Of a stretch of 64,000 nucleotides of DNA, positions 27,118-30,891 are shown piece by piece. Under the pieces are notes generated by a model, which was given only the letters and a program-made list of their open reading frames with translations, had not been told where the DNA came from and searched no databases. This DNA comes from Thermogladius calderae 1633 (lineage in GTDB: Archaea; Thermoproteota; Thermoprotei_A; Sulfolobales; Desulfurococcaceae), in the NCBI RefSeq assembly GCF_000264495.1, contig NC_017954.1, positions 744,001 through 808,000 of the forward strand, in the 5' to 3' direction. Positions within the stretch are counted from its first letter, which is position 1. Every line of letters starts with the position of its first letter. Both the position numbers and the translations under genes were made by a program.

Positions 27118-28224
27118 TTAGTCCTCTCTCTCCTCGTACTCCTTAGTTAGTACTGGGCACCACTTCTCGGGGTGCTCTACTCCGTCGGGGCAGCCCTTCC
27201 CGTGCCTAATAGGCTTGTCGATTCTGCTCAACAGCACAATCCTGCTCGGTATGCTCTCGCTGAGTACCTTGTACCCCGTCAGCTCGCTCAGCCTCTGGGC
27301 GACCCTCCTTATGTCCTCGTGTTCGGGCATGTTCGCGAGAGTTAGCCTACCCCTGCTACCACCGAGGAACATGTAGGCCTTGACCTCGATGTAGGTCGGG
27401 TTGCCTCTCTCAACCATCTTAGCGAAGCTCCTCAGAGCCTCCTCGTGGTCGTTATACCCTTTGACTATCGTGAACCTGAACACTGTGGGAGATCTGAAGC
27501 TCCTCACTATCTCGAGCGTCTCCTGGAATAGCTCCCAGGCTCTCGGGACGAGCGGCCTGTTGAACTCCTCGTAGGACTTCTTGTCCCACGACTCGATACT
27601 GATGTAGAGCTGGGTCGGCTCCTCCTCTAGGTTTGCTAGCACGTCGGGTCTCGTACCGTGGGTGACGAGGAAGGTTGTTATCCCCCGCTTGTGGTACTCC
27701 TTAATGAGCTCGCCCAGCCGTGGGTAAAGGAGGGGTTCCCCCGTCAAACTTATGGCGGCGTGCTTCGGGTTCATGGCCTCCTCCACCCTCTTCTGGTCTG
27801 CCTTGGGGTTGCCCTTGAAGCCCGCCATTATCTCTCTGTGTACCTTGATGCTCTCCTCTACGAGGACCTCCGGGTCGTCGACCACTGGGACTCTCGTCTC
27901 GTCCCAGTGGAGGCCTATGTCCTCGGGCTGTATCCTCCAGCAGTGGAGGCACCTGTTCCAGCACCACGCGGCAACAGGGGACATCTGGATACACCTGTGG
28001 CTCTCGATACCGTACCAGAGGCACTTGTAGCAGAACCTGTTCCTCAGGACGGCCTCTTTGCTCCAGTGGCACCTCTTAACAACTCCTATAGTGCCTATGA
28101 AGTGGTAGCCCTGCTTGACCATTCTCTCGTAGATAGCCCTGTACGCCGGGCTGCTGTTCCAGAACTCCTCCCTCTTCCTCTTCACTTCGCCCCAGTCTAT
28201 GCTCTTTAGCACTGTTCGAAACAC
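27118..28224 (-). CDS. taw1: 4-demethylwyosine synthase (radical SAM, Taw1/TYW1)
   Basis: About 368 residues. The radical SAM motif is CWNRCLHC. Upstream cysteines in CYKCLWYGIESHRC bind the second cluster. ISLTGEPLLYP and FRFTIVKGYND are further family motifs. It condenses m1G37 of tRNA-Phe with pyruvate to form the tricyclic 4-demethylwyosine, acting on the product of Trm5. The open frame extends to 28548, but that part overlaps another gene and looks non-coding. The GTG at 28224 (or 28212) agrees with the TATA box GGTATAAAAG at 28271-28280 and with family length. Confidence 0.93.
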   Translation of the reverse strand: MFRTVLKSIDWGEVKRKREEFWNSSPAYRAIYERMVKQGYHFIGTIGVVKRCHWSKEAVLRNRFCYKCLWYGIESHRCIQMSPVAAWCWNRCLHCWRIQPEDIGLHWDETRVPVVDDPEVLVEESIKVHREIMAGFKGNPKADQKRVEEAMNPKHAAISLTGEPLLYPRLGELIKEYHKRGITTFLVTHGTRPDVLANLEEEPTQLYISIESWDKKSYEEFNRPLVPRAWELFQETLEIVRSFRSPTVFRFTIVKGYNDHEEALRSFAKMVERGNPTYIEVKAYMFLGGSRGRLTLANMPEHEDIRRVAQRLSELTGYKVLSESIPSRIVLLSRIDKPIRHGKGCPDGVEHPEKWCPVLTKEYEERED

Positions 28225-28270: not shown

Positions 28271-28280
28271 CTTTTATACC
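28271..28280. promoter_or_regulatory. Two-way TATA region for taw1 (-) and the C/D sRNA (+)
   Basis: The block CTTTTATACC reads GGTATAAAAG on the minus strand, an excellent TATA box for taw1. On the plus strand it gives TTTTATA, about 30 bases before the C/D sRNA. One short AT-rich block thus may serve both directions. Confidence 0.5.
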
Positions 28281-28307
28281 GTGGAGCAAATAATCCTATC
28301 TGGGCCC

Positions 28308-28374
28308 TGCACGTGATGAGCGAACCCGTGTCAGAGCTTTTTGCCATGAAGACGGTTGGCGTTGCTGAGGTGCA
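28308..28374 (+). ncRNA. Box C/D guide sRNA overlapping the leader of the next gene
   Basis: C box GTGATGA (28313-28319), a 12-base guide GCGAACCCGTGT, a degenerate D' CAGA (28332-28335), a degenerate C' TGAAGA (28347-28352), a second 12-base guide CGGTTGGCGTTG, and D box CTGA (28365-28368). TGCAC (28308-28312) and GTGCA (28370-28374) form a perfect terminal stem. The exact 12-base guides, the stem and a TATA box ending about 30 bases upstream support it, despite the weak inner boxes and the 11-base inner spacer. The GAGGTG Shine-Dalgarno of the downstream gene (28367-28372) lies inside the D box and stem. Confidence 0.7.
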
Positions 28375-28380
28375 ACCTGT

Positions 28381-30891
28381 TTGGTCAAGGCAGTTATAAT
28401 GGCTGGAGGAGAGGGCTCTCGCCTCAGACCCCTGACAGTGACAAGGCCTAAGCCGATGATCCCTCTGGCAAACACGCCGATTATTGTAAGGCTGATCAAG
28501 CACTTGAAGGAGAACACGGGCATCAGCGACATAGGCATCACCCTTCACTATCTACCCAACGTAATAATGTCCCACCTCAACGACGGGGCAGACCTAGGGG
28601 TTAGGCTTCACTACGCTGTAGAGGAGAAGCCGCTGGGGACGGCAGGGGGTGTCAAGAACCTCGTCGAGGCAGAGGGCTGGGACGACACTATACTAGTGAT
28701 CAGCGGCGACGTCGTCACGAACATCGACTTGAAGAGGCTGGTCGAGTTCCACTTCGATAACCGTGCTGACTTGACCATGGCCGTCAGGAGGGAGACGGAT
28801 GTCACGAGGTTCGGTATCGTGGCGCTAGACGAGAGGGGGAGGGTGCTGAGGTTTAAAGAAAAGCCGTCGCCGAACGAAGTCTTCAGCGACATCGTAAACA
28901 CGGGTATCTACGTTATCGAACCCCACGTTTTCAAGAAGTTGGAGTCCAAGCGTAGCATAGACTTCGCCTCCGACGTGATTCCCCGGCTCCTCGCAGACAA
29001 CTTCAGGGTCTTCGCCATGAGAGTGGACGACTACTACTGGAGCGACATAGGGGACATAGAGCAGTACAGGGCCACACACGCGGACCTCTTGTCCCGGAGG
29101 CTCGCTTTACCGGGCGGGGTAGAGGGGCGAGAAGTCAGGCCGGGCGTTTTCATCGGCAGGAACGCGCACGTCGACGTCGAGAGGGTCATACCGCCTGTGG
29201 TGGTCGGTAACAACTCCAAGATCATATCCTCCACGTTGGGCCCCTATACTGTTATAGGTAGCAACGTTGTGGTAGAGGAGGGCAGTAGAGTCGAGAACTC
29301 GATCGTTTTCGACAACGCCTACATAGGTAGCGCGAGCGTTGTAGAGGGGGCGGTGATCGGCGAGAAGGTCACCCTCGGAGACCACGTCGTCGTGTCGGAG
29401 GGGGTTGTTATAGGCGACGAGACACGCGTAGGTAGGGGGGCAAGCCTAAAAGCGAGGGTCAAGATCTGGCCTATGAAGATCATCGACCCGTACACAACTG
29501 TCTCCTCCGACATTAGGTGGGGCGTGAGGTGGAGTAGGGTACTCTTCGAGCCCTGGGGCTTGACCGGTATACTGAATATCGACATAACGCCGGAGTTCCT
29601 CGTGAAGCTGGGCTCGGCTATCGGCAGTATAATGAGGGAGGGCGAGAGCGTGATAGCGGGCAGCGACATCTCGCCGGCCAGCCACGTAGGTTTACAGAGC
29701 ATGATAGCCGGGTTCATGTCTGTCGGGGTCGGGGTGAGGTACGCCGGTTACACGCCCCTCCCCTTCATTGCGTTCGGCGTGAAGTGGCTGAAGACGAGCG
29801 GCGGGGTCTACGTGAACACTCTACAAGGCGAGTACGCAAAGATCCGCGTCAAGGTCTTCGACAGGGAGGGCAAGTTCCTGTCCAAGAACCTGGCGAGGAA
29901 GATCGAGGACGTCTTCTTCCGCGAGCAGTTGAGGAGGTCTGCCGAGATAGACGCCGGCTTCCTCGTCGAGGAGAACGGGCTCGAAAAGCTGTACGCGGAG
30001 GAGGCGTCCACTCTACTCGACCTAGAGGAGGTTGATGGTAGTAAGCTCTCGAAAGTCCTAGTGGACTGCGGCGGAGGCGTGGTCTCCAAGGTTATAGCGG
30101 ACGTCTTCTTCAAGACGAAGCTCCCCCTGTACTACTCGAACTGTACAGATGTGAGGACGCCGAGGGCTATTAGGAGACAGGCCTTCACGGAGCTGGTCGA
30201 TTCCAGCATCGCTATAGTGAAGGGCACGGGGTTCAGACTAGGGTTCATCTTCGATAGCGACGGGGACAAGCTGACGCTGGTCACTGACAGGCACGGCTTG
30301 GTCGCCGGCGACAAGCTCGTAGCATTAATGGCGCAGGTGGTCCTGGCCGAGAGGCCTGGGAGCAGGATACTCCTCCCAGAGACGACGCCTAGGGCCATAG
30401 TCGAGTTCGTGGAAAGGCTCGGCGGTAGAGTAGAGCTGGCCGAGACGGGGCTCATGGGTCTATCGGAGAAGATTAACACCTCCTACGCTCTGGCGGCGGA
30501 CGAGAGGGGCTCTATAATCTACCCGGAGTTCCACTACGGCCCGGACGCGATATTCACGGCCATGAGGCTCCTGGTGTTCGCGAGCAGGTTCGACATCAAC
30601 GAGGCAGTCTCGAGACTCCCTCTGATACACAGGGTGGTCAAGGAGATCTACCTCCCGTTCGAGAAGCGAGGCTTGTTTGCCAGGGAGCTGACGAGGGCCT
30701 TAGACATGAGGGAGATCGAGATGATAGACGGGCTAAAGATATTCGATGAGGGGGTTGGCTGGGTCTACCTCAGGTTCTCGAGGACAGACCCCGTGGTCGA
30801 GGTTATATTCGAGCCCATAGAGGAGGGCAAGCTGGAGTACATGATCAAGTCGGTGATGGACCTGATCGGGAGGGTTCTCGGAAAGATATAA
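28381..30891 (+). CDS. Mannose-1-phosphate guanylyltransferase fused to a phosphomannomutase-like domain lacking the catalytic serine
   Basis: An 836-residue fusion. Residues 1-235 form a sugar-nucleotide transferase (GGEGSRLRPLT at 9-19, KPM nearby). Residues 250-370 form a left-handed beta-helix of hexapeptide repeats. The rest is a phosphohexomutase fold. The metal loop DSDGD is present at 625-629. The active-site loop, usually TASHNP, reads NTLQGE at 479-484, so the phosphoserine position is a leucine. The sugar loop GEESGH is also altered (ADERGS). The first half probably makes an NDP-sugar for glycoprotein or lipid glycans. The mutase half is likely regulatory or structural. TTG at 28381 has GAGGTG at 28367-28372. 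Confidence 0.88.
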   Translation: MVKAVIMAGGEGSRLRPLTVTRPKPMIPLANTPIIVRLIKHLKENTGISDIGITLHYLPNVIMSHLNDGADLGVRLHYAVEEKPLGTAGGVKNLVEAEGWDDTILVISGDVVTNIDLKRLVEFHFDNRADLTMAVRRETDVTRFGIVALDERGRVLRFKEKPSPNEVFSDIVNTGIYVIEPHVFKKLESKRSIDFASDVIPRLLADNFRVFAMRVDDYYWSDIGDIEQYRATHADLLSRRLALPGGVEGREVRPGVFIGRNAHVDVERVIPPVVVGNNSKIISSTLGPYTVIGSNVVVEEGSRVENSIVFDNAYIGSASVVEGAVIGEKVTLGDHVVVSEGVVIGDETRVGRGASLKARVKIWPMKIIDPYTTVSSDIRWGVRWSRVLFEPWGLTGILNIDITPEFLVKLGSAIGSIMREGESVIAGSDISPASHVGLQSMIAGFMSVGVGVRYAGYTPLPFIAFGVKWLKTSGGVYVNTLQGEYAKIRVKVFDREGKFLSKNLARKIEDVFFREQLRRSAEIDAGFLVEENGLEKLYAEEASTLLDLEEVDGSKLSKVLVDCGGGVVSKVIADVFFKTKLPLYYSNCTDVRTPRAIRRQAFTELVDSSIAIVKGTGFRLGFIFDSDGDKLTLVTDRHGLVAGDKLVALMAQVVLAERPGSRILLPETTPRAIVEFVERLGGRVELAETGLMGLSEKINTSYALAADERGSIIYPEFHYGPDAIFTAMRLLVFASRFDINEAVSRLPLIHRVVKEIYLPFEKRGLFARELTRALDMREIEMIDGLKIFDEGVGWVYLRFSRTDPVVEVIFEPIEEGKLEYMIKSVMDLIGRVLGKI

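Follow-up and report, generated by a model that had tools for sequence, protein, structure and literature searches.

In the available part of PMC7994747, C/D box sRNA genes that overlap the 5' end of an open reading frame (ORF) are given as 7% of the sRNA genes studied, with reduced expression of the downstream gene (Tripp et al. 2017, cited there), and the maturation of these RNAs is described, with reference to the same work, as depending on the internal boxes and not on the flanks. The L7Ae protein represses translation of its own message: the l7ae 5' UTR contains a k-turn through which the Shine-Dalgarno (SD) sequence is masked (PMC5539422). According to PMC4247193, 11 potential snoRNAs lie within 5' UTRs of Thermococcus kodakarensis.

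The window analysed here is a stretch of 64 kb from a Thermogladius genome of 1,356,318 bp, which consists of a single contig. A canonical archaeal C/D box guide RNA occupies positions 28308-28374 on the plus strand, with the boxes C (RUGAUGA), D', C' and D (CUGA) in this order. Box C (GTGATGA, 28313-28319) was recognised from the sequence and by the architecture scan, while boxes D' (CAGA, 28332-28335), C' (ATGAAGA, 28346-28352) and D (CTGA, 28365-28368), all on the same strand, were located by pattern search and sequence. Directly 5' of D' and of D stand the two guides, GCGAACCCGTGT (28320-28331, +) and CGGTTGGCGTTG (28353-28364, +), each 12 nt long, which falls within the 10-12 nt of archaeal C/D sRNA guides. 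The box C, the guides and the box D named in the original prediction could thus all be found in place; their architecture is unique in the window, and guides and boxes are conserved across genera. The C-D'-C'-D architecture was found at one place in the 64 kb and in none of 40 Markov shuffles. Our genome-wide statements are based on pattern searches, in which the strict C/D pattern gave 15 matches against 1 for the reversed control; among these 15 sRNAs the one at 28308-28374 was the only one having its box D at most about 12 nt from the start of a long same-strand ORF, as judged by a rough census of the flanks. The Rfam scan of the 64-kb window returned no family at the gathering score. Since, to our knowledge, most archaeal C/D sRNAs have no Rfam model, the empty scan is no argument against the sRNA.

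The length of the exact 12-base guides was confirmed; a target in rRNA was not, as no convincing one appeared. The complementarity of both guides to rRNA, including the large subunit (LSU) rRNA with its intron removed and the LSU rRNAs of two relatives, was no better than that of shuffled guides. The D' guide is predicted to pair with the T arm of tRNA-Ser, 11 of its 12 bases pairing contiguously with one G-U; shuffled guides did as well in 1% of the cases over 11 nt and in 6% over 12 nt (P approx. 0.01 and 0.06). The D guide remained an orphan in the rRNA and tRNA target searches, though its core is conserved. A tRNA guide combined with an untargeted guide in one sRNA is a pattern reported for Pyrobaculum in the available part of PMC7994747, and the sRNA described here would resemble those RNAs in this respect. 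As separate observations, the 23S rRNA gene of the host (L003, G000:C1:424041-427723) exceeds that of the relative G021 by about 500 bases, which is consistent with an intron, and the 23S rRNA gene of G017 has several further insertions. Another C/D sRNA of the host (L113, G000:C1:675489-675536, minus strand) is a likely double tRNA guide, both of its 10-nt guides matching tRNAs with penalties of 0.5 and 0 (P 0.007 and 0.003).

The gene that follows (28381-30891, +) has a TTG start codon and encodes an 836-aa fusion of a sugar nucleotidyltransferase, hexapeptide repeats and a phosphohexomutase; its N-terminus, LVKAVIMAGGEG, is conserved in the orthologues from this codon onwards. The SD sequence GAGGTG (28367-28372, +) overlaps box D, is complementary over 6 bases to the genome's own 16S rRNA 3' end (GGATCACCTCCT) and ends 8 nt before the TTG at 28381. 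With the TTG placed 12 nt past box D and the SD within box D, the element corresponds in its sequence layout to the 5'-overlapping C/D sRNA genes. The claim that GAGGTG lies in box D and the bases following it was therefore borne out: it is the sole SD, and it is kept in all three Thermogladius genomes having the locus (the window genome, G024 and G025) while the spacer to the start codon differs. On the other side of the sRNA a divergent TYW1 gene (4-demethylwyosine synthase, tRNA modification; TIGR03972 above the cut-off) occupies 27118-28222 on the minus strand. A TATA box, TTTTATA (28272-28278, +), was recognised in the sequence, from which transcription would be expected to start around 28299-28303, and a TATA-like element stands at a similar distance from box C in G024 (TTTTTATATC) and G025. 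As this is the single TATA box, about 40 nt upstream of box C, the 28308-28374 segment is probably the 5' leader of the sugar-nucleotidyltransferase/mutase mRNA. A scan for bacterial-type promoters and terminators is not meaningful here.

A perfect terminal stem had also been noted, and its two arms, TGCAC (28308-28312, +) and GTGCA (28370-28374, +), can indeed form 5 pairs, but a sequestering role for it did not stand up. The probability of such a stem arising by chance is about 1% for the allowed registers, and it is restricted to two near-identical genomes, being missing from G024, the third Thermogladius genome, and from the majority of the relatives; terminal stems of this kind are absent in most members of the sRNA family. 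In the usual k-turn the base right after box D pairs, beyond the 3-nt bulge. The stem seen here requires one unpaired base after box D (G28369) and is thus off the usual register by one base. In the folding of the unbound leader at 85 C the SD was only partly paired. Since the stem is neither conserved nor in register and the SD is only partly paired in the unbound leader, sequestration by the stem is unsupported, and the lack of conservation rules it out as the main mechanism of hiding the SD. Occupancy of box D by L7Ae/Nop5 would be a better candidate.

The search gave orthologues of the 836-aa protein in ten genomes of the host's family. Eight of these, from four genera, have sense-upstream of the gene an sRNA that shares the D' guide and the core of the D guide (the three Thermogladius genomes, G021/G022, G038/G039 and G016). 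The D' guide is conserved in 12 of 12 positions in several other genera, and the D-guide core, GTYGGCGTT, is conserved as well. In the three Thermogladius genomes the end of box D is 11-12 nt from the TTG and GAGGTG overlaps box D, whereas in the five relatives, belonging to three other genera, the distance from box D to the start is 25-47 nt and a separate GGTG or AGGTG stands 6-9 nt before the start. GGTG follows CTGA only where box D is close to the start; in other members of the family the bases at this place are GTAT, GGAT, TTTA, ACAC, TAAA or GCGG. Judged by these sequences, the fusion of box D and SD at the sugar-nucleotidyltransferase gene is a feature of Thermogladius. Of its three genomes, two hardly differ at this locus (96% protein identity), and the evidence therefore really comes from two lineages.

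The sRNA is not a fixed partner of the gene: it is antisense to the orthologue in G017 and G018, which together with the lack of the fusion gene in G030, where the sRNA stands beside TYW1, rules this out. At three further loci (L095, L098, L099) it is located elsewhere, apart from the gene. The sRNA is therefore a guide RNA in its own right and modular in its association with genes. At L136 (G029:C9:77456-77507, minus strand) a member of the same sRNA family precedes a biotin-carrier gene, with CTGAGGTG 8 nt before the TTG. In three genomes (L094, L096, L097) a long hairpin (e.g. GCCCCCTATTTTTATAGGGGGC) takes the place of the short loop between D' and C', and its sequence differs in each. Matches in WOR-3, Roseovarius and Streptosporangiaceae were taken as chance.

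C/D elements ending in CTGAGGTG were counted in 147 genomes of the host's order; 16 were found, and 2 in the reversed control. In 12 of the 16, representing 8 gene contexts, an ORF of at least 90 aa starts 4-10 nt after the GGTG. The permuted word CTGAGTGG gave 10 elements, none of them with a gene start at this distance, and the value for random positions was 4.3%. When related matches were collapsed, 8 of 11 contexts had a start, compared with 0 of 6 (hypergeometric probability approx. 0.007). At class level 22 such elements were obtained, 15 with starts. By Pfam, the contexts are the window gene (3 genomes), a 94-aa protein having no Pfam match (2 genera), a HAD protein, a MoxR ATPase (3 species), a PfkB kinase (3 genomes, 2 genera) and a biotin carrier; a methyltransferase-like ORF (G144) and a 205-aa ORF (G140) are less certain. 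Box D and SD are thus really shared, and related archaea show the arrangement again in front of several other genes. The test partly selects for SDs, and for this reason it shows dual use and not regulation.

The pfkB gene is the most deeply conserved case of an overlap between sRNA and gene start found here. In all 29 Sulfolobaceae leaders read (10 genera; L153-L182) a C/D-like element with the D-guide core GGCGGCT abuts the pfkB start, ending from 23 nt before to 1 nt into the aligned protein start, within a region about 0-110 nt before the gene. The position of the SD varies, being within box D in genera g55, g76 and partly g49 and just after box D in g37 and g42, while in g26 box D and the pfkB ATG have their A in common. 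In some of the leaders C' is degenerate. Two genera show peculiarities of their own. In six species of g34 (L171, L175, L176, L177, L179, L182) a stop codon in the pfkB frame immediately precedes the CTG of box D, and ATG, GTG and TTG are absent near the conserved N-terminus of the protein; this CTG may serve as the start codon there. In g46 (L170, L178) the pfkB frame continues through the D guide without a stop, and an in-frame GTG or ATG, located in box C' or behind it, would extend the protein by about 7 residues (MWRLSDY).

The reading of the window locus that we favour, with a probability of roughly 70%, is a dual-use leader, in which one primary transcript is subject to a trade-off between sRNA and mRNA; a single transcript probably serves as guide RNA or as message and not as both. 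The one promoter would give a single primary transcript that begins a few bases ahead of the sRNA, and L7Ae, Nop5 and fibrillarin may assemble the sRNP on it, followed by trimming of the ends. The trimmed sRNA would retain box D along with the SD, leaving a message devoid of its ribosome site; where a ribosome bound GAGGTG first, the transcript would act as mRNA. The Thermogladius fusion probably derived from an sRNA further upstream and a separate SD, an arrangement persisting in the three other genera. The co-transcription, the mutual exclusivity, the lowered translation and the direction of this change are what we infer from sequence comparison. We assume that the 3' end of the sRNA reaches the end of the SD at 28372; were the RNA trimmed at 28369, GGTG or some of its bases would stay with the mRNA, and the message may also be rescued by SD-independent initiation. 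The earlier proposal that RNP assembly or cleavage removes the ribosome site is supported by two points, the SD lying in box D and the single TATA box that would make the sRNA the first part of the mRNA; a sequestering role of the stem is not supported.

The leader had further been regarded as an RNP-controlled switch. In a dedicated switch free L7Ae or the whole sRNP would tune the synthesis of the sugar-nucleotide enzyme to the supply of sRNP proteins or to the growth rate. Besides repressing its own mRNA by an SD-masking k-turn, L7Ae recognises such motifs in other mRNAs (PMC5539422), and a close overlap of sRNA and start codon is kept family-wide at another gene, the pfkB of Sulfolobaceae. 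At the window gene, however, the fusion is genus-specific, the relatives having a separate SD, the sRNA on the other strand (G017, G018) or the sRNA without the gene (G030; L095, L098, L099); the terminal stem is not conserved, the sugar-nucleotide gene has no obvious link to RNA modification, and no sign of a controlled split between sRNA and mRNA was seen. We consider such a switch unlikely, and the regulatory part of the prediction is not upheld. Unlikely, too, is the wider generalisation that in Sulfolobales and their relatives box D would repeatedly act as the SD or abut the start of specific metabolic genes, sRNP assembly setting their translation; this would constitute an ancient link between guide-RNA supply and metabolism, deepest at pfkB in Sulfolobaceae and independent at the window gene.

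Leaderless mRNAs are common in Thermoproteota and the start regions of the orthologues differ, which would suit two independent transcripts, the sRNA made from the promoter at 28272 and the protein from a nearly leaderless mRNA starting just before 28381, so that the overlap is without consequence. Such a start needs a TATA box near 28350-28358, where the DNA is GC-rich (AGACGGTTG), and GAGGTG is kept in G024 despite the changed spacer to the TTG, although a leaderless mRNA would not need it; this explanation is quite improbable. The element could also be, at present, only a cis-acting mRNA structure, a k-turn leader from which no stable guide RNA is released. The lack of a significant rRNA target and the orphan D guide agree with this, and such cis-elements are suggested for the 5' UTR snoRNA predictions of T. 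kodakarensis (PMC4247193). However, genomes in which sRNA and gene lie apart have also conserved both guides, which indicates a guide function, and the D' guide fits tRNA-Ser. We regard a purely cis-acting element as very improbable.

With the proposed dual-use leader, it becomes possible to test clearly how a single stretch of RNA serves both the methylation sRNP and the ribosome; the recurrence of this sharing is backed by a controlled count. The pfkB leaders are the best place to test this sharing. Since the pfkB case seems to span the Sulfolobaceae, probably including the genetically tractable S. acidocaldarius, a possible competition between guide-RNA maturation and translation is directly testable. 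As in the T. kodakarensis 5' UTR snoRNAs, the guide RNA would here lie within an mRNA leader and its release would need processing, while an overlap with the SD is not described in the available part of PMC4247193. With the l7ae autoregulation (PMC5539422) the locus would share an element able to form a k-turn, placed over the SD or beside it, so that a bound protein would mask the SD; the position of the SD agrees with such control. There it is a simple k-turn without guides, whereas here it is a full two-guide sRNA, conserved in relatives as a separate RNA, and any repression by bound L7Ae would be hypothetical. A further likeness is to the 5'-overlapping C/D sRNA genes, as far as PMC7994747 describes them: sequence, and probably promoter, are common to the sRNA and the downstream gene, but there the start codon is shared, in the guide or after box D, and here box D supplies the SD.
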